From Catellatospora sichuanensis (GTDB taxonomy: Bacteria > Actinomycetota > Actinomycetes > Mycobacteriales > Micromonosporaceae), in assembly GCF_007483665.1 (NCBI RefSeq), contig NZ_ML660184.1, forward strand, positions 226,932 to 290,931: a DNA stretch of 64,000 bases. The letters are read 5' to 3'. Shown here in pieces: positions 37,664-44,948 of this stretch. Position 1 is the first letter of the stretch. Each line of letters begins with the position of its first letter. The notes under the pieces are model-generated. The model was not told where the DNA came from. It made no database searches and saw nothing but the letters and a program-made list of their open reading frames with translations. The position numbers and the translations under genes are program-made.

Positions 37664-39049
37664 TCAGAGGCCGGATAGGCGGAGGAGGAGGGGTTTGACG
37701 TCGGTGGCGGCGAAGGCGTCGCGGTGTTGGGTGGGGTCGGAGCAGATCAGGAGGGGGCCGTCGGCGGCGTCGGCGGGCAGGCGGCCGTGTGAGCCGCGGA
37801 CGGCGCGCGCGCCCGCGTCGAGGCCGACCACGTTCATCAGGTAACGCATGCCGGCCTTCTTGCGCAGCAGGGCGGTGGCGGCACGGCGCTTGGCGGCGGC
37901 GGGGGCGGCCGGGTCGAAGAACAGCTCGGCGGGGTCGTAGCCGGGCTTGCGGTGGATCTCGACCAGGCGGGCGAAGTCCGGGGCTTTGGCGTCGTCGAGC
38001 CAGTAGTAGTAGGTGAACCAGGCGTCCGGTTCGGCGACGAGGACCAGCTCGCCCGAGCGCGGATGGTCGAGTCCGTGGGCGGCCTTGCCCGCGTCGTCGA
38101 GCACCTGCGCCACCCCGGGCAGGTTCGCGCAGATCTTGGCGACGACGGCCCGATCGGCCGGGTCGGCGACGTACACGTGCGCGATCTGGTGGTCGGCGAC
38201 CGCGAAGGCCCGCGAGGTCCACGGGTCGAGGTATTCCATGCCGGCCTGGGTATGCACGCGCAGCAGCCCCTCGGCGCGCAACGCCCGGTTGACGTCCACG
38301 GGTCGGCGCACCGGGGTGATGCCGTACTCCGACAGTGCCACCACGGTCGCCCCGCGCGCCGCGGCGGCGTCGAGCAGTGGCTCGAGGACGCCGTCCAGCT
38401 CGGCCGCGGCCGCGGCCGCCTCGGGGCCGTACGGGCCGAAGCGCTGCAGGTCGTAGTCGAGGTGCGGCAGGTAGACGAGGGTCAGGTCGGGCTGGTGCGC
38501 GGCCATGATGTGCCGGGCCGCGGCCGCGATCCAGCGACTGGAGGCGATGCCCGCCCCCGGGCCCCAGAACTGGAACAGCGGAAACGTGCCCAGTTCGGCG
38601 GTGAGCGCGTCGTGCAGTTGCGGCGGGTCGGTGTAGCAGTCGGGCTCCTTGCGCCCGTCGGCCCGGTACACCGGCCGCGGCGTGACCGTCCAGTCCACGT
38701 CCGCGCCCATGGCGTACCACCAGCAGACATTGGCCACCGTGTAGCCGGGACGGGCCTTGCGCGCCGCCTGCCACACCTTCTCACCGCCGACCAGCGCGTG
38801 GTGCTGCCGCCACAGCAGCACCTCGCCCAGGTCGCGGAAGTACCAGCCGTTGCCGACCACGCCGTGCTCGGCAGGCAGCACGCCGGTCAGCAGGGTCGAC
38901 TGGGCCGAGCAGGTGACCGCCGGCAGCACCGTGCCCAGCGGCGCGGCGAAGCCGGTGTCGGCGAGTGCCCGCAACCGGGGCATGTGCTCCAGCAGGCGGG
39001 AGGTCAGCCCGACGACGTCGAGCACGACCAGCGGGGTCACGGTGTCCAC
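37664..39049 (-). CDS. ebo-cluster alkaline phosphatase/nucleotide pyrophosphatase-family protein
   Basis: 461 residues of the alkaline phosphatase superfamily (type I phosphodiesterase/nucleotide pyrophosphatase). Likely elements are VLDVVGLTSRLLEHMPRL at the start (metal Asp), AVTCSAQSTLLTG with the Thr or Ser nucleophile region near residue 47, YLPHLDYDLQRFGP near 195 (metal Asp and His) and ALSEYGITPV near 240. No signal peptide is seen. It is the last gene of the six-gene operon and overlaps the EboE-type gene by 13 bp; GTG 39049 follows AGGAGGT. It corresponds in type to the phosphatase gene of ebo clusters. The substrate is unknown, possibly a phosphodiester intermediate. Confidence 0.8.
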   Translation of the reverse strand: MDTVTPLVVLDVVGLTSRLLEHMPRLRALADTGFAAPLGTVLPAVTCSAQSTLLTGVLPAEHGVVGNGWYFRDLGEVLLWRQHHALVGGEKVWQAARKARPGYTVANVCWWYAMGADVDWTVTPRPVYRADGRKEPDCYTDPPQLHDALTAELGTFPLFQFWGPGAGIASSRWIAAAARHIMAAHQPDLTLVYLPHLDYDLQRFGPYGPEAAAAAAELDGVLEPLLDAAAARGATVVALSEYGITPVRRPVDVNRALRAEGLLRVHTQAGMEYLDPWTSRAFAVADHQIAHVYVADPADRAVVAKICANLPGVAQVLDDAGKAAHGLDHPRSGELVLVAEPDAWFTYYYWLDDAKAPDFARLVEIHRKPGYDPAELFFDPAAPAAAKRRAATALLRKKAGMRYLMNVVGLDAGARAVRGSHGRLPADAADGPLLICSDPTQHRDAFAATDVKPLLLRLSGL

Positions 39050-40254
39050 GGGCGGACCTCCTGCAGCTCCATCGTGCCGAGTGGTTCGGTGGGCCGGCCC
39101 GGGGCCAGCCCGAGCGCGATGAGCTCGTCGCGGGCGAACGCCAGCTCCGCGGCGATCCCTGCGGCCAGCTGCGCGGGGGTGACCGGCCGCTGCGCCGGGG
39201 GCAGCACGTTCCAGGTGTACGTCTCCACGTCGACGTGGTCGCAGCCCGCGGTCGGCCCGCCGAACAGCTCCTTCAGCGCCACCCGCAGCTCGGGCAGGGT
39301 GCTGCCGAGCGGCGCGGCGGGTTCGGCGTGCAGCGGCACGTGGTAGTGCACCCGCCACGGCTGCGGGGTGCGGCGCGGGCGCGGCAGCAGCCGATCGAGG
39401 GCCTCGCCGAGGTCGTCGGCGGCCTCACCGCGCGAGCCGCGGGTCTGGTGCAGGAAACGGGGTTCGTCGTAGCCGCGCAGCACGGCCTGCGCCGCGACCG
39501 GGTCGTCGGCGGTCAGCGCGGCGGAGATCTGCACCTTCATCACCGGCAGCCCGGCGCGGGCGAGCCGGGACAGCGCCGCGGCGGGCTCCTCCCAGGCGCA
39601 GGCCAGGTGCGCGAGGTCGAGGCATACGCCGAGCCAGTCGCCGTCCATGCCGGCCCACAGCCGGGCGGCCTGCTCGGTGGTCTCCACCACGCAGCCGGGC
39701 TCGGGCTCGAAGCCGACCTGCACGGTGCGACCGGTGCGGCCGGCGATGGCGGCCAGCCCGTCGGCCAGCTCGTCCAGCACCCGCCCGGCCGTGCCGGCGC
39801 GCTCGGTGTCCCAGGGCTCGCGCCAGGCCAGCGGGAGCGTCGAGATGGAGCCGCGCACCGCGTCGTCGGGCAGCAGATCGGCCAGCACCACGGCCAGGTC
39901 GAGGGTGTAGCGCAGGCGTTCCGGGGTGGTCCAGTCCGGGTGGTACACCGCGTGCTTGACGACCTCGGCCTGGAAGGACTGGTACGGGAAGCCGTTGAGG
40001 GTGACCACCTCCAGCCCGCGCGAGTCCAGCTCACGCCGCAGCCGGCGGCGCAGGTGCGGCTCGGCGGCGAGCGCGGACGCCGCGGGTGCGGCCAGCCACA
40101 GGCCCAGCCCCAGCACGTCGGCGTCCAGCTCACGGCGGATCGCCGTGCCGTACGTGTCGAGCTGCGCCACGATGCCGTCGAGGTCCTCGGCCGGATGCAC
40201 GTTGGTGCAGTAGCTCAGATGCACCGTCTGCCCGTCGGCATGAGCCAGCCGCAT
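39037..40254 (-). CDS. eboE: EboE-type TIM-barrel metabolite-traffic protein
   Basis: 405 residues of the xylose-isomerase-like TIM-barrel superfamily. Visible are HLSYCTNVHPAEDLDGI at the start, LNGFPYQSFQAEVVKHAVYHPDW near 105 (a hallmark of EboE), VQVGFEPEPGCVVET near 185, and VETYTWNVLP near 345. EboE is part of the ebo system, shown in a cyanobacterium to act in moving a scytonemin precursor to the periplasm; its catalytic role is unknown. ATG 40254 shares one base with the TatD-type stop (TGATG). Confidence 0.82.
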   Translation of the reverse strand: MRLAHADGQTVHLSYCTNVHPAEDLDGIVAQLDTYGTAIRRELDADVLGLGLWLAAPAASALAAEPHLRRRLRRELDSRGLEVVTLNGFPYQSFQAEVVKHAVYHPDWTTPERLRYTLDLAVVLADLLPDDAVRGSISTLPLAWREPWDTERAGTAGRVLDELADGLAAIAGRTGRTVQVGFEPEPGCVVETTEQAARLWAGMDGDWLGVCLDLAHLACAWEEPAAALSRLARAGLPVMKVQISAALTADDPVAAQAVLRGYDEPRFLHQTRGSRGEAADDLGEALDRLLPRPRRTPQPWRVHYHVPLHAEPAAPLGSTLPELRVALKELFGGPTAGCDHVDVETYTWNVLPPAQRPVTPAQLAAGIAAELAFARDELIALGLAPGRPTEPLGTMELQEVRPWTP

Positions 40255-41102
40255 CAGGCGCCCCCACGCTTGATCGAGTTCCCGGCGAAGTCTGCGGGCG
40301 AGTCGGCGTCGGCGAGGTCCAACCGCCCGGACTGGCCGTAGAACTCGACCGGGTTGCGCCACAGCACCCGGTCCACGTCGTCTTCGGTGAACCCGGCCGC
40401 GAGCATCGCCTCGCCGGTGCGCCGGGTGAGCAGCGGGTCGGAGCGGCCCCAGTCGGCCGCCGAGTTGACCAGCATGCGCTCGGTGCCGTGGCGGCGCAGC
40501 AGCTCGACCATGCGCGGCGGGGACATCTTGGTGTCCGGGTAGATCGAGAAGCCCAGCCAGCAGCCGGTGTCGCGGACCAGCTCCACGGTCACCTCGTTGA
40601 GGTGGTCGATCACCACGCGTCCGGGATCGATGCCGGACTCCTTCACCACGTCCAGGCTGCGCTGGGTGCCGCGGACCTTGTCCCGGTGCGGCGTGTGCAC
40701 CAGCGCCGGCAGGTCGAACTCGACCGCCAGCCCGAGCTGCGCCGCGAAGGCGAGGTCCTCCAGCGGCGTCATCGAGTCGTAGCCGATCTCGCCGACCGCG
40801 ACCACCGCGTCCTTGTCCAGGTAACGCGGGACCAGTTCGAGCACCTCGCGGCAGCGCGGGTCGTTGGCCTCCTTCGGGTTCAGCGCGATGGTGGCGTGGT
40901 GGCGGATGCCGAACTGCCCGGCCCGGAACGGCTCCCAGCCGATCAGCGCGTCGAAGTAGTCGGCGAACGAGCCGGGGCTGGTGCGGGGCTGGCCGAGCCA
41001 GAACGACGGCTCCACCACGGCGCGCACCCCGGCGGCCGCCATCGCCTCGTAGTCGTCGGTGGTGCGTGAGGTCATGTGCACGTGCGGGTCGAAGATGCGC
41101 AT
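40254..41102 (-). CDS. eboB: TatD-family metal-dependent hydrolase (EboB-type)
   Basis: 282 residues of the amidohydrolase superfamily. Metal ligands are HVH in FDPHVHMTSRTTDDY (residues 5-19), Glu in VAVGEIGYDSMTP (near 115), His in LVHTPHRDK (near 150), His in VVIDHLN (near 180) and Asp in SAADWGRSDPL (near 225). It is an EboB-type branch (EVGYD-like pocket, FSIYPDTKMSP). Ebo clusters carry such a hydrolase with unknown substrate. ATG 41102 overlaps the upstream stop by one base. Confidence 0.82.
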   Translation of the reverse strand: MRIFDPHVHMTSRTTDDYEAMAAAGVRAVVEPSFWLGQPRTSPGSFADYFDALIGWEPFRAGQFGIRHHATIALNPKEANDPRCREVLELVPRYLDKDAVVAVGEIGYDSMTPLEDLAFAAQLGLAVEFDLPALVHTPHRDKVRGTQRSLDVVKESGIDPGRVVIDHLNEVTVELVRDTGCWLGFSIYPDTKMSPPRMVELLRRHGTERMLVNSAADWGRSDPLLTRRTGEAMLAAGFTEDDVDRVLWRNPVEFYGQSGRLDLADADSPADFAGNSIKRGGA

Positions 41103-42607
41103 CAGATCCCCTTCTCTGCTTTGAGGCGGGCCAGCAGCGCCGCGGCGTCGGCCGGCAGCTCGCGCCCGGCGGCGTGGCGCTCGTCGGCGACCCCGGCCAG
41201 CATCGCGGCCAGCTCGCTGTCGGCCCGGTGGTCGAGGTCGTCGACGCAGGCCAGCGCGATGCCCATGAACACGCACTTGACCACCGCCTGCCGCCAGGCG
41301 GCCGCGTCCAGGTGCGCCGCGTACGGGCCCAGCGCGGCGGCGACCAGCCGGGTGTCGTTGGTGCGGATCGCGTCGTGCAGCAGCTCCACCGCGCTCGCGC
41401 CGACCGGCAGCAGCGGCAGCGCGCGCAGCACCGCCCGCTTCTCCGCCGCGTCGCCGTGCCGGTAGAGCGCGCGGGCCTGCACCACCGCGCGTTCGGCGGG
41501 CAGCGTGGCCAGCAGCACCGCGCGGGCCGCCTCGTCGGCCGTCCAGCCTGGCAGGACCTCGGCGCGCCCGCAGCGGCGGGCCGCGGCCGGGAACAGCCGG
41601 CTGATCACGGACGGGTCGGCGGCCACCCGGCGCAGCGCCTCGTCCAGCCAGCCGCCGTCGTCGACGGCGGCCAGCGCGGCGCGCAGCACCTCCGGTGCGG
41701 GCACCGCCCCGGCCGGGCGGCGCTGCCCGGGCGCGCGCTGTCCCAGCGCGGGGGCGCGGTCGGCCGTACCGCCGGACTGCCCGGCGGCGGCGCGCAGGAA
41801 CGTCAGCGAGCGCCGTGCGACGTCCGGCGCGGCGTGCGAGTGCCGGGGCAACTCCACCCCGACCAGGCCGCGGTATCCGGCGTCGGCCAGCGCCCGCAGC
41901 ACCGGCGGGAAGTCGATCTCACCCTCGCCGAACTCCAGGTGCTCGTGCACGCCCCGGCGCATGTCCTCGATCTGCACGTTGACCAGCCACGGCGCGGCCG
42001 ACACGACGCAGTCCGCGACCGGCTCGGGCTCCAGGCACCGGCAGTGCCCGATGTCGAGGGTCAGCCCGAACGCGCGCGGCATGCCCAGCGCCCGGTGCAG
42101 CGTCCGCCAGCCCGCCAGGTCCTGCACGAACATGCCCGGCTCCGGCTCGAAGCCGACCGGCACGCCCGCCTTGGACGCCGCCTCGGTGAGCCGGGCGCAG
42201 CCGTCGACCAGGCGGTCCCAGGCCAGCTGTGCGTCGACGGCCGGCGGTCGCACCCCCGACCAGCACGACACCGCCTCCGCGCCCAGGTCGGCTGCGATGG
42301 ACACCGCGCGCAGCAGGAAGTCCAGCCGCACCTCGCGCTCGTCGTGCAGCAGTGTGGGCGCGTGCTTGCGGCGCGGGTCGAGCAGGTAACGCGCGCCTGT
42401 CTCGATCACCACGGACAGGCCCAGCTCCATCAGCCGGGTGGCCAGGCCGGAGACCCGGCGGGCCAGGCCCGGGGCGTACGGGTCGAGGTGGTGGTGGTCG
42501 AGGGTGAGCGCGACGCCGTCGTAGCCGAGGTCGGCGAGCACGGCCAGCGCGTCACCGAGGCGGTGGTTGGCGAAGCCGTTGGTGCCGTACCCGAAGCGCA
42601 GGTTCAT
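41102..42607 (-). CDS. sugar-phosphate-isomerase-like TIM barrel fused to an EboA domain
   Basis: 501 residues with two parts. Residues 1-275 form an AP-endonuclease-2/xylose-isomerase-like TIM barrel (FGYGTNGFANHRLGDALAVLADLGYDGV; VPVGFEPEPGMFV near 148; GLTLDIGHCRCLEPE near 184; VGVELPRHSH near 250). A Gly/Ala/Pro linker leads to an EboA-type helical domain (about 310-501; AVVQARALYRHGDAAEKRAVLRALPLLP; AAWRQAVVKCVFMGIALACVDDLDHRAD). EboA alone is a separate small protein in cyanobacteria, so this is a fusion. It starts 4 bp inside the end of the UbiA-type gene. Confidence 0.8.
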   Translation of the reverse strand: MNLRFGYGTNGFANHRLGDALAVLADLGYDGVALTLDHHHLDPYAPGLARRVSGLATRLMELGLSVVIETGARYLLDPRRKHAPTLLHDEREVRLDFLLRAVSIAADLGAEAVSCWSGVRPPAVDAQLAWDRLVDGCARLTEAASKAGVPVGFEPEPGMFVQDLAGWRTLHRALGMPRAFGLTLDIGHCRCLEPEPVADCVVSAAPWLVNVQIEDMRRGVHEHLEFGEGEIDFPPVLRALADAGYRGLVGVELPRHSHAAPDVARRSLTFLRAAAGQSGGTADRAPALGQRAPGQRRPAGAVPAPEVLRAALAAVDDGGWLDEALRRVAADPSVISRLFPAAARRCGRAEVLPGWTADEAARAVLLATLPAERAVVQARALYRHGDAAEKRAVLRALPLLPVGASAVELLHDAIRTNDTRLVAAALGPYAAHLDAAAWRQAVVKCVFMGIALACVDDLDHRADSELAAMLAGVADERHAAGRELPADAAALLARLKAEKGI

Positions 42608-43818
42608 GTGGCCGAGATCCTCCGGACCAGGCGCCGGGCCAGCGGCGCGAGCGCGGCGAGGGCGAGGGCGGTGAGCCCAGCCCCGGTGCGGGCGGCCAGC
42701 GTGGCCTGCAACGTGGGCAGGCCGGTGATGCCCGAGCCGACGGCGGCGCGGACCCGGGCCGCGTCGGGCTGCGCAGCCGCGCGGGCCTGCGCCCGGCCGT
42801 AGTGGCTGAGATACCAGCCGGCCAGTGCCACGGGCAGCACGGCCCGCCAGCCCCTGGCCCGGGTGGCACCGGCCGCGGTCGCGGCGACGGCCACCGTGCC
42901 GGCCAGCGTCGCCACCGGCAGGTTCGCGTCCGCGCCGGACACCTCACGCCGGGACAGCGCGGTGACCGTGTACGTGTGCGCGGCGACGGTCAGCGCCGCG
43001 GGCACCGCCTTCGCCGCCCGGCCGGTCGACGCGCCGAGCAGCACGTCCAAGCCCCGGCAGGCGGCCATCACGGCGGGACCGGCCGCGGTGTTCTTGGCTT
43101 TCACGTCGTACGCCCACACGGTCGCGGCCAGCGGCACGGCCGTGGCCAGGCCGCGGCGGCCGCCCGCCCACGCGGCCAGACCCACTCCCGCGGCGGTGAG
43201 CCCGGCGGCCAGCCCGAGCGCGGTCCGAGGCGACACCCGCCCGCTGGGGATCGGCCGCTCGGGGCGCTCGACGGCGTCGAGGTCCCGATCGGCCCAGTCG
43301 TTGGCGGCCATGCCCGCCCAGTACAGGCACACCGACGCGGCGGCCAGCCCCGGCGTGCGCCGGTTCAGCGTTCCGGCGGCGGCCGCTCCCGCGATGACGT
43401 CTCCCGGCACCGAAAGCGCCGCGGGTGCTCGCACCAGTTCGGCGACGTCTCGCAGCACGGCCGTCCACCCGCCGCGAGACCGGCGTTGCGCGCCGGTCTC
43501 GCGCTCGGCCGCCCCGCTCCCGATGTCGGCTCGGCGTGCGGACGGCACGGCGGCTCCGCTCGCGGCGGCTGTCCCGTCCGCGGTCGACGGGCCGCGGCGA
43601 CGCCTCGCCCCCGCTCCGGGCACGGGGCCGCGGCGGATCTTGTGCAGTTCGCGTTGTTCCGGCGACACCGACTGCACAAGATCCAGCTCACGGGCCGGGC
43701 GGGCGTCCGACTGGCGCGGGTCGGCCGGGCGGGCTGGACGGCGCTGGCCCTGGGCGGCGCGCAGGGCGCGGGCGGCGGGTAGCGCCGCGGCGCGCTGCGC
43801 CTCGGAAGGCGCGGTCAC
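42604..43818 (-). CDS. eboC: UbiA-type prenyltransferase (EboC-type) membrane protein
   Basis: Up to 404 residues from GTG 43818, which overlaps the inositol-phosphate synthase stop by 4 bp. The UbiA core begins at about residue 122 (ELVRAPAALSVPGDVIAGAAAAG). The first Asp motif is NDWADRDLDAVERPERPIPSGR near 170, and the second Asp-rich position is degenerate (VWAYDVKAKNTAAGP near 235). Multiple hydrophobic helices follow. It probably joins a prenyl or isoprenoid chain to a polar acceptor in the membrane. Residues before 121 are low-complexity and contain a palindromic repeat (43635-43684), so a later start, e.g. GTG 43458 (284 residues), may be the true one. Confidence 0.75.
   Translation of the reverse strand: MTAPSEAQRAAALPAARALRAAQGQRRPARPADPRQSDARPARELDLVQSVSPEQRELHKIRRGPVPGAGARRRRGPSTADGTAAASGAAVPSARRADIGSGAAERETGAQRRSRGGWTAVLRDVAELVRAPAALSVPGDVIAGAAAAGTLNRRTPGLAAASVCLYWAGMAANDWADRDLDAVERPERPIPSGRVSPRTALGLAAGLTAAGVGLAAWAGGRRGLATAVPLAATVWAYDVKAKNTAAGPAVMAACRGLDVLLGASTGRAAKAVPAALTVAAHTYTVTALSRREVSGADANLPVATLAGTVAVAATAAGATRARGWRAVLPVALAGWYLSHYGRAQARAAAQPDAARVRAAVGSGITGLPTLQATLAARTGAGLTALALAALAPLARRLVRRISAT
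43635..43684. repeat. 14-bp inverted repeat within the N-terminal extension of the UbiA-type gene
   Basis: GGATCTTGTGCAGT (43635-43648) and ACTGCACAAGATCC (43671-43684) are perfect inverted arms with a 22-nt centre. It looks like an intergenic REP-type element that the coding frame happens to pass through. Confidence 0.75.
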
Positions 43819-44948
43819 GCCAGGCCCTCGACCATCCGGACCAGCGCGTCGAACTGGGCGGTCAGGCCGTGCTCGACGTCGCCGAGCGGGTCCTTGAAGA
43901 AGAAGGCCAGCTCCGGCAACGGGCCGCTGCGCCCGGCGCGGTGCGCGGCGGCGGTGAGCCGGACCAGGTCCAGCACCAGTGGGGCGGCCAGCGCCGAGTC
44001 GCAGCCGTGCCAGCTGAACTCCATGCGCATCGCGGTGCCGAGGAACCCGCGGAAGGTGATCAGGTCCCAGGCGGTCTTGAACTCGCCCAGGTCCTCGACG
44101 TACTCGATGCGGGTGTCGCCCTGCGGCTGGTAGCCCAGCGTCTCGGCGAGCACCCGCTGCTTGCTGGCGGCCTTGGCGGCGTTCGGCGCGGGCTGGGCCA
44201 GGTTGGCCCCGTCGCCGCCGCCGAGCAGGTTGGCCCCGGACCAGCTGCGCACGGCCAGGTGCCGCATCGCGAACATGGGCGCGAGCACCGACTTGACCAG
44301 GGTCTCCCCCGTCTTGCCGTCGTGCCCGGCGTACGGCACGCCGCGCTCGTGGGCGAGCTGCGCCAGTGCCGGCAGCCTGGCGCCGGTGGACGGGGTGAAG
44401 TCGACGAACGAGCACCCCGCGGTGAACGCCGCGTACGCGTACAGCGAGCTGGGCGGCAGCACCGGCACCGGCCCGCGCAGAGCCTCGCGCAGCACGTCGA
44501 GCGCGGCGTGCGCCTCGTGCGGCTCGGCGGCGGGCTCGGTGGACGACACGTTGACGACCACGACCCGCCCCAGCTCGTGGCGGCGGCGGAACTCGTCGAT
44601 GTCGGCCGCGATGAGCGCGGCGGTCTCGGCCTGCGTCGCGCCGCGCGGCGCGGGCCGCACTTCGGCGTCGAGCGCGGCCAGTTCCGGCTGCAGGGCGGTG
44701 ACCAGGCGGCCGGGCAGCACACCCGCGTCGGCGAGCGCGTCGGCCTTCTTGAGGATCGGGGTCGCGATCACGTCGTGCCCACCGAACACCAGGTCGGCCA
44801 GATGGGGCAGTTGAGGGTGCCGTAGCTGCGGCAGTTCCGTGACGCAACCGGTGGGCTCGGCGAGCCCCGCGCGCAGCGCGACGGCTCCGACCATGCTGGT
44901 GACGGCGACCGACCCCCGCCCACCGACCAGCCAAACACCTGTTCGCAT
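43815..44948 (-). CDS. myo-inositol-1-phosphate synthase-like protein of the ebo operon
   Basis: 377 residues. The NAD-binding start MRTGVWLVGGRGSVAVTSMVGAVAL, the middle GVPYAGHDGKTGETLVKSVLAPMF (equivalent to the GDDxKSG region, near residue 208), the WSGANLLGGGDGANL turn (near 240; the SYNHLGNNDG region of classic enzymes) and the lysine-bearing FFFKDP near 355 all fit the MIPS family. It would form a cyclitol phosphate from a hexose phosphate. It is the first gene of the six-gene operon. In cyanobacterial ebo clusters the matching place is taken by a dehydroquinate-synthase-like gene, another cyclising enzyme. ATG 44948. Confidence 0.82.
   Translation of the reverse strand: MRTGVWLVGGRGSVAVTSMVGAVALRAGLAEPTGCVTELPQLRHPQLPHLADLVFGGHDVIATPILKKADALADAGVLPGRLVTALQPELAALDAEVRPAPRGATQAETAALIAADIDEFRRRHELGRVVVVNVSSTEPAAEPHEAHAALDVLREALRGPVPVLPPSSLYAYAAFTAGCSFVDFTPSTGARLPALAQLAHERGVPYAGHDGKTGETLVKSVLAPMFAMRHLAVRSWSGANLLGGGDGANLAQPAPNAAKAASKQRVLAETLGYQPQGDTRIEYVEDLGEFKTAWDLITFRGFLGTAMRMEFSWHGCDSALAAPLVLDLVRLTAAAHRAGRSGPLPELAFFFKDPLGDVEHGLTAQFDALVRMVEGLA

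Follow-up and report, generated by a model that had tools for sequence, protein, structure and literature searches.

The window analyzed here, a 64,000-nucleotide stretch of contig C4 in the 9.45-Mb genome of Catellatospora sichuanensis, carries an ebo operon of a variant type, in which a myo-inositol-phosphate-synthase-like cyclase (mIPS) and a TIM-barrel protein (TIM) stand in place of EboD, the dehydroquinate-synthase-like member of the canonical set. The minus strand from 44948 to 37664 holds six overlapping open reading frames (ORFs): mIPS first, followed by an EboC/SCO3242-family prenyltransferase, a TIM barrel–EboA fusion, EboB, and EboE, with EboF last. Across the loci compared below, EboD and the mIPS–TIM pair nearly exclude each other, a two-for-one exchange. 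The mIPS active-site residues are intact, the gene order is fixed, and a prenyl-diphosphate synthase adjoins the operon in most Micromonosporaceae copies examined. On balance, we consider it probable that the operon encodes the synthesis of a cyclitol-derived molecule that carries a prenyl group and functions at the membrane or beyond it, with mIPS and TIM in place of EboD.

Family assignments identify the locus as an ebo operon of the mIPS type. In NCBIfam, the EboA domain (41135–41536; residues 358–491 of the fusion encoded at 41102–42607) scores 148 bits against a cut-off of 50 (EboA_domain, NF035938), and EboE (39037–40254) scores 414 against 250 (TIM_EboE, NF035939). The initial annotation had staked its reading on these two parts, and the profile searches place both in the expected families. 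The prenyltransferase (42604–43818; GTG start) falls below the EboC equivalog NF035940 (145 bits against 250) and instead exceeds SCO3242_trans (385 against 260). The Pfam gathering scores of NAD_binding_5, Inos-1-P_synth, UbiA, AP_endonuc_2 (in two proteins), TatD_DNase, and Phosphodiest are all exceeded. The xylose-isomerase-like TIM half of the fusion (41768–42607) reaches 126 bits for AP_endonuc_2. EboB (40254–41102), a TatD/amidohydrolase-type hydrolase, reaches 44 bits for TatD_DNase and 101 bits against PDB entry 3guw (AF_1765), and EboF (37664–39040), of the type I phosphodiesterase/nucleotide pyrophosphatase family, reaches 220 bits for Phosphodiest. The NCBIfam scan of the operon proteins returned no EboB or EboF model; both memberships follow from Pfam and from profiles of both ebo types. 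Within 22 kb surrounding the operon, profile searches detected no EboD, and the only EboD-profile match in the genome was a gene of the dehydroquinate synthase type at 138 bits, against 667–679 bits for two true EboD proteins in the same search. Because EboD is lacking, we class the operon as an ebo variant rather than a canonical one. The replacement of the dehydroquinate-synthase-like member, as initially proposed, is thus upheld, with the TIM barrel as a further party to the exchange.

The cyclase at 43815–44948 (377 aa) has both mIPS Pfam domains (NAD_binding_5, 172 bits; Inos-1-P_synth, 103 bits) and the catalytic lysines of the family. It is of the archaeal type, its nearest solved relative by sequence being the Archaeoglobus fulgidus mIPS (1u1i, 229 bits); a five-membered-cyclitol-phosphate synthase (6k96, 54 bits) and an inositol-3-phosphate synthase (1gr0, 41 bits) score lower. 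N240, K259, K263, K291, D317, and K352 are retained. All 12 positions checked, which we take to be catalytic or substrate-binding, are identical in the A. fulgidus enzyme, as are 109 of 251 aligned residues; N255, K278, and K367, mutated in PDB entries 3qw2, 3qvw, and 3qvx of that enzyme, are among the checked sites. The six key residues are intact in all 89 mIPS proteins adjoining EboC (short duplicate loci of the same genes counted) and in 5 of 5 that do not adjoin it. Judged by these residues, the active site is intact, in support of the initial claim of another cyclizing enzyme. The window mIPS is 96% identical to a protein of a Catellatospora sp., and its relatives are annotated plainly as inositol-3-phosphate synthase. 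An assignment as the mycothiol Ino1 was dropped: The window protein scores 35 bits for mycothiol_INO1 (TIGR03450; cut-off 638), and a mycothiol-type Ino1 is a separate gene on contig C12 (649 bits). As a side observation, mIPS proteins at four loci without ebo genes (L179–L182), 53–57% identical to the window's, fall inside the ebo-linked mIPS clade.

The exchange was read from two sets of loci, searched with locus profiles built from few seeds (annotated plasmid loci and the window). Outside Actinomycetota, we took the best 80 of at least 583 places with EboE relatives, from a query led by an alphaproteobacterial EboE; none of the 80 is titled as actinobacterial. Within this selection, EboD is present in 67 loci, neither cyclase in 13, and mIPS or TIM in none by profile search. 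The 13 comprise nine loci with EboE alone, two contigs shorter than 6 kb (L077 and L139), and two full ebo cores (L084 and L089); in the case of L145, an EboD-like gene (505 bits) is present elsewhere in the genome, on a different contig. The second set consists of 63 loci chosen for their ebo genes: the window, a second copy in the same genome, plasmid records, and loci from Actinomycetota and Gemmatimonadota. The mIPS set was assembled from 12 of the 48 plasmid records that matched EboE, from 19 loci of an Actinomycetota draw, and from 41 chosen places with relatives of the window mIPS, with divergent and same-genus copies taken deliberately. Fourteen fetched loci lacking ebo genes or lying at contig ends (L171–L182, L184, and L185) stand outside the 63. 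Some redundancy is present: L069 and L230 are one plasmid region, L200 and L201 are near-duplicates within a single genome, and L150 is in both sets.

The 63 loci divide into 51 fixed-order operons, three Gemmatimonadota loci, six EboD loci, and three others (a solitary EboE at L064, an operon without mIPS at L153, and a broken copy at L170). All 51 operons, including two from the window's genome, share the order mIPS–EboC–TIM–EboA–EboB–EboE–EboF, which argues against a chance arrangement; in five (L071, L152, L157, L162, and L197), one or two genes are split into two hits, possibly by frameshifts. The Gemmatimonadota loci pair a divergent EboE with the series EboB–EboF–EboC–mIPS–TIM, and two of the three are the same plasmid region. 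Exchange is also seen in trans. Three genomes (G545, G546, and G427) have a complete or broken ebo core without EboD and carry TIM and mIPS elsewhere, in G427 as direct neighbors. TIM was found in none of 50 EboD-type genomes (50 of 63 listed; E ≤ 1e-30; query, the G427 TIM), a search whose targets included no positive genome, the positives having come from a separate search with a related query.

Tree and similarity evidence point to an exchange that probably occurred more than once. A carefully built EboE tree of 43 rows places the Gemmatirosa EboE, found alongside mIPS and TIM, with EboD-type sequences (bootstrap 98–99); two type changes are needed in 200 of 200 bootstrap trees, and a single mIPS-type clade appears in 0 of 200. 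In BLAST comparisons, the closest proteins to EboB, EboC, EboE, and EboF from two Gemmatimonadota loci are all of the EboD type. In Gemmatirosa, identities to the best EboD-type versus the best mIPS-type protein are 61 vs. 42% (EboE), 74 vs. 43% (EboB), 71 vs. 59% (EboF), and 62 vs. 51% (EboC). From this tree position and these proximities, a separate exchange of EboD for mIPS and TIM in Gemmatimonadota appears likely, though not proven. An earlier rejection of the single clade (p-AU 2e-45, by the approximately unbiased [AU] test) was withdrawn: Sequences with neither cyclase, including actinobacterial clade members, had stood outside the clade.

The prenyltransferase would provide the second half of the proposed product. 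N50, D51, D54, D58, R62, Y114, and K119 are each conserved in 95% or more of 113 EboC sequences of both types, and we take N50, D51, D54, and D58 to be the Asp-rich NDxxDxxxD region of UbiA enzymes. Upstream of its conserved domain (about 42604–43449), 351 nt separate the mIPS stop from the UbiA domain, in frame and free of stops. Across 11 length classes of same-genus copies, the window included, this stretch measures 33–402 nt (11–134 aa); its length is divisible by 3 in every class, and the GTG at −3 is invariably present. Its variable length and constant frame point to a hypervariable N-terminal extension of EboC (43450–43818 by the start-codon survey). An intergenic gap between mIPS and EboC was considered and dropped, since the stretch is in frame here and in ten further length classes. 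The extension also contains an inverted repeat at about 43637–43682, with its exact pattern at three places in the genome.

Of the 30 operons in the family draw, 19 have a co-oriented prenyl-diphosphate synthase gene located 0–221 bp 3′ of the EboF match: all seven second-copy operons of the genus, 12 of 15 from other genera, and none of eight first-copy operons. The neighbor is of the short-chain type; its best NCBIfam model, the mycobacterial farnesyl/geranyl diphosphate synthase, scores 269 bits, below the cut-off of 600. None was detected in the 80 non-actinobacterial loci by a search limited to loci longer than 8 kb (E ≤ 1e-6). The prenylated character initially predicted for the product gains support from this association. 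In vitro, the EboC-type enzyme Ubi-297 transfers a farnesyl group to an aromatic acid (PMC9235831).

Structure models frame the possible roles of the two barrel proteins. In the model of the fusion, the barrel is confident, and its nearest folds are mostly ketose 3-epimerases; the EboA domain is mostly helical and modeled with high confidence, and the 50 matches listed by the structure search are TIM-barrel sugar enzymes, with no EboA fold name among them. E154, D185, H188, H221, H223, and E252, a set we would expect of a metal site, are each conserved in 97% or more of 56 TIM sequences. A scripted test found nine loci in which TIM and EboA are fused (one from Nonomuraea, the rest same-genus copies) and 35 pairs in which they are separate; their genes also overlap in frame in the second-copy operons of the genus. 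EboE is modeled as a xylose-isomerase-like TIM barrel (predicted local distance difference test score, 94.6), and its matches include sugar isomerases, IolE, IolI, and the 3-dehydroshikimate dehydratase AsbF, so that isomerization or dehydration of a cyclic ketone may be possible. A search of the EboE profile against solved structures gave no convincing sequence relative. The window EboE is 95% identical to that of Catellatospora methionotrophica and only about 30–41% identical to EboE of the EboD type. Separately, solitary EboE-like genes at L120, L128, and L144 lie beside a Gfo/Idh-type dehydrogenase gene, at loci without other ebo genes.

TIM and mIPS also occur together outside ebo. Conserved clusters at L223 (9404–18055), L172 (1944–10606), and L224/L250 combine an ebo-type TIM and an mIPS with a methyltransferase, a YcaO protein, and a GT4-type glycosyltransferase; the L223 cluster additionally has a Gfo/Idh protein and a PIG-L-type deacetylase. 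These calls rest on Pfam for eight L223 and two L172 proteins, on NCBIfam, and on likeness for the remainder. The hosts are one Micromonosporaceae genome and two alphaproteobacterial metagenome-assembled genomes (MAGs). By gene content, the cluster looks like an inositol-glycoside pathway with a YcaO step, resembling mycothiol-type logic. This co-occurrence supports an inositol-type substrate for TIM.

For the substrate, order of steps, product, and role outside the membrane, we infer the following scheme. The mIPS would cyclize a hexose phosphate, with glucose 6-phosphate the likeliest substrate, yielding inositol 3-phosphate or its inosose-phosphate intermediate. That cyclitol would be reshaped by the EboA-linked TIM-barrel protein, acting as a metal enzyme of epimerase/isomerase-like character; jointly, the two would perform the task of EboD alone elsewhere. 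EboC would then add an isoprenoid taken from a short-chain prenyl diphosphate, and EboB (a hydrolase), EboE (isomerase/dehydratase-like), and EboF (phosphodiesterase-like) may finish or recycle the molecule. The predicted end product is a membrane-bound, prenylated, cyclitol-derived compound for extracytoplasmic chemistry or metabolite transfer. Because the ebo set spans many bacterial phyla and some algal plastids, the substitution of mIPS and TIM for EboD serves as a natural experiment: It suggests a head group that is a carbocycle reachable from both cyclases, narrows the possible products, and predicts that mIPS and TIM would rescue an eboD mutant, with mIPS, a cyclase of a well-understood type, as a tractable entry enzyme. 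The remaining half of the molecule is suggested by the prenyl synthase neighbor, and a possible place of its use by the ThuA- and GSDH-type neighbors described below.

Several observations weigh against this pathway. The window's operon copy has no prenyl-diphosphate synthase neighbor, as judged from the gene list rather than by a synthase search, and no ThuA/GSDH-type neighbor within the 22 kb used; the substrate of Ubi-297 is an aromatic acid, not a cyclitol (PMC9235831). L153 has TIM without mIPS, although a full operon is present in the same genome; among the three in-trans genomes, G545 and G546 are closely related and have one unrelated cluster in common. G544 has EboD beside EboE plus a contig with EboC–mIPS–TIM, and G547 has EboD and a distant stand-alone mIPS, without TIM. 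The exclusion of EboD and mIPS is therefore not absolute; a strict rule that mIPS occurs only without EboD was abandoned on these two genomes, and TIM is the sharper marker. Finally, the AU test does not reject a single mIPS-type EboE clade for the 43-row tree (p 0.26; 12 log units worse), and in a quick 106-row EboE tree, from which sequences with neither cyclase and the long L168 sequence were left out, one clade has p 0.75, the constrained tree being 23 log units better.

The closest competitor retains the tail chemistry and changes the product: The mIPS type would make a C6 cyclitol-phosphate lipid and the EboD type a C7 cyclitol lipid, with EboB, EboC, EboE, and EboF tolerating both, and the exchange would then mark a change of product rather than an equivalent route. 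The phosphate is retained by mIPS. For EboD, the proposed substrate is sedoheptulose 7-phosphate, with loss of phosphate (PMC5133447), and the low identity of EboD-type EboE to the window's EboE also fits a divergent product. Two Gemmatimonadota loci nevertheless pair mIPS and TIM with EboD-type-like EboB, EboC, EboE, and EboF, so that the shared Ebo enzymes seem able to use either cyclase; we regard distinct C6 and C7 products as a tentative possibility. A different fate of the ring, which we think somewhat unlikely, would have EboE dehydrate a cyclic ketone from EboD or from mIPS and TIM to an aromatic quinol, prenylated by EboC in a meroterpenoid-like manner. The dehydratase folds among the EboE matches, the aromatic substrate of Ubi-297 (PMC9235831), and BE-40644, which joins a cyclitol to a farnesyl group (PMC5133447), would suit it; those fold matches, however, extend broadly over sugar isomerases and lack a convincing solved relative by sequence, and the operon has no oxidoreductase.

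Two further accounts deny the pathway itself. The Ebo proteins might form a transport complex that makes no small molecule, their enzyme-like domains being scaffolds, yet catalytic-type residues are conserved in mIPS, TIM, EboB, EboC, EboE, and EboF, none of the six proteins matches a transporter family in the NCBIfam and Pfam scans, and a prenyl synthase is a frequent neighbor, which leaves such a complex very improbable. Accidental clustering of a housekeeping mIPS that supplies inositol for mycothiol or phosphatidylinositol is hardly credible: It would agree with the plain annotation of the relatives, but the genome has its mycothiol-type Ino1 elsewhere, the position of mIPS is fixed in 51 operons, and EboD and mIPS–TIM nearly exclude each other.

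Neighboring genes may place the proposed prenylated cyclitol near extracytoplasmic proteins. ThuA, GSDH, 3-keto-disaccharide hydrolase, or ScyD/E-like genes accompany 29 of 54 mIPS-type and 18 of 64 EboD-type loci, in several phyla; for 43 of the 47 loci, the closest such gene is situated among the ebo genes or no more than 1.7 kb away, and for four (L070, L123, L129, and L169) it is further off. All ten neighbor genes searched bear the expected Pfam domains, in agreement with earlier scans. Pfam confirmation covers 13 of the 47 loci, and ten loci (L074, L083, L085, L088, L092, L101, L105, L119, L123, and L129) are low-scoring calls by similarity only. As a weak control, which itself includes incomplete ebo loci and loci where EboE or mIPS stands alone, 3 of 40 remaining loci have such a gene (L093, L219, and L257, all beside ebo genes) and 0 of 37 when these are set aside. 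In Flagellimonas, a single protein (L127, 12709–16074), encoded 128 bp away from an ebo operon of the EboD type, joins ThuA, GSDH, PKD, cytochrome c, and CBM6 domains.

The adjacency of ThuA/GSDH-type genes and the cytochrome c fusion raise a more specific reading, in which ebo makes a prenylated, cyclitol-derived redox lipid or cofactor that faces outside and is used by secreted sugar- or metabolite-oxidizing proteins (GSDH, ThuA, 3-keto-disaccharide hydrolase, or ScyE-like). If so, the scytonemin defect would be one case, and inositol-type and dehydroquinate-type cyclases would be two routes to the same head group. In Nostoc punctiforme, the monomer remains cytoplasmic in ebo mutants but not in the scyE mutant, a study in which L-sorbosone dehydrogenase is the periplasmic marker protein (PMC6282210). 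This contrast favors a transfer-linked role and goes unexplained by a purely redox one; with the weak control and a window copy lacking such a neighbor also counting against it, we consider the redox lipid doubtful. The algal occurrence of ebo and the movement of a precursor to the periplasm, both mentioned in the initial annotation, agree with PMC5133447 and PMC6282210.

Within the operon, the initially reported coordinates and gene series are borne out by the ORFs, NCBIfam, and Pfam, and the junction overlaps of 1–13 bp are correct for the start codons chosen. mIPS and EboC overlap by 4 bp (GTGA; EboC GTG at 43818, mIPS stop at 43815), EboC and the fusion by 4 bp (ATGA), the fusion and EboB by 1 bp (TGATG), and EboB and EboE by 1 bp (TGATG); EboE and EboF overlap by 4 bp if EboF starts at GTG 39040 and by 13 bp if at GTG 39049. 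The operon is flanked by miaB upstream and a gene for a glycoside hydrolase family 5 (GH5) cellulase with a cellulose-binding domain downstream. Both flanks are kept in all seven fetched same-genus loci of this copy, on which account an association with biosynthetic clusters was rejected as a rule. Plasmid-borne Streptomyces copies do adjoin biosynthetic-cluster genes. Two such plasmids (L063 and L064) carry similar polyketide clusters, one with a full mIPS-type operon and the other with EboE alone, and the L064 EboE adjoins the same methyltransferase-type gene as L063.

A second operon on contig C21 of the same genome has the same six genes in the same order, 56–82% identical, with a prenyl-diphosphate synthase about 0.2 kb downstream and a divergent ThuA gene about 0.2 kb upstream. 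The two copies are not sisters in a quick mIPS tree: The window copy groups with a same-genus copy, and the second copy groups with a same-genus copy and L191, from another genus. Relatives of the window mIPS occur in 94 of 150 family genomes (E ≤ 1e-30, including mIPS unlinked to ebo). EboE exceeds its cut-off in 18 of 396 evenly drawn Actinomycetota genomes; among 200 genomes from the phylum to which a Gemmatimonadetes MAG belongs, it does so in 2, and a third EboE is split into two pieces.

The component families and the ebo set are already known, and the EboE, EboA domain, and SCO3242 family names are in NCBI use for such proteins. Our searches of the open-access PMC literature, supplements excluded, found no paper on the exchange of mIPS and TIM for EboD, nor on links of prenyl synthase or ThuA/GSDH genes to ebo. 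Relative to the canonical operon (eboA–F; cyanobacteria, Bacteroidota, Pseudomonadota, and eustigmatophyte plastids; EDB cluster), the tight linkage of EboA, EboB, an EboC-type enzyme, EboE, and EboF is shared, whereas here EboD is absent, mIPS and TIM are added, TIM and EboA are fused, and the order is mIPS–C–TIM–A–B–E–F. In the calcium-dependent antibiotic cluster of Streptomyces coelicolor, SCO3242 gives the prenyltransferase model its name, and SCO3243 is given as a myo-inositol phosphate synthase (PMC3610822); that pair is listed among antibiotic-cluster genes, and the window's lies between miaB and a cellulase gene. The A. fulgidus mIPS shares all checked positions with the window enzyme, which differs in sitting in an ebo operon, and the five-membered-cyclitol-phosphate synthase belongs to the same superfamily but matches far less well (54 vs. 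229 bits). Actinobacterial TIM–EboA hybrids with the domain pair of the window fusion are described in PMC5133447, whose main text does not contain the word inositol and draws no link to mIPS there; the same paper suggests that gaps in assembly may account for some ebo sets that lack eboD. It also proposes an isoprenoid-cyclitol product of EboD and EboC (PMC5133447), and the present results fit and extend that proposal.

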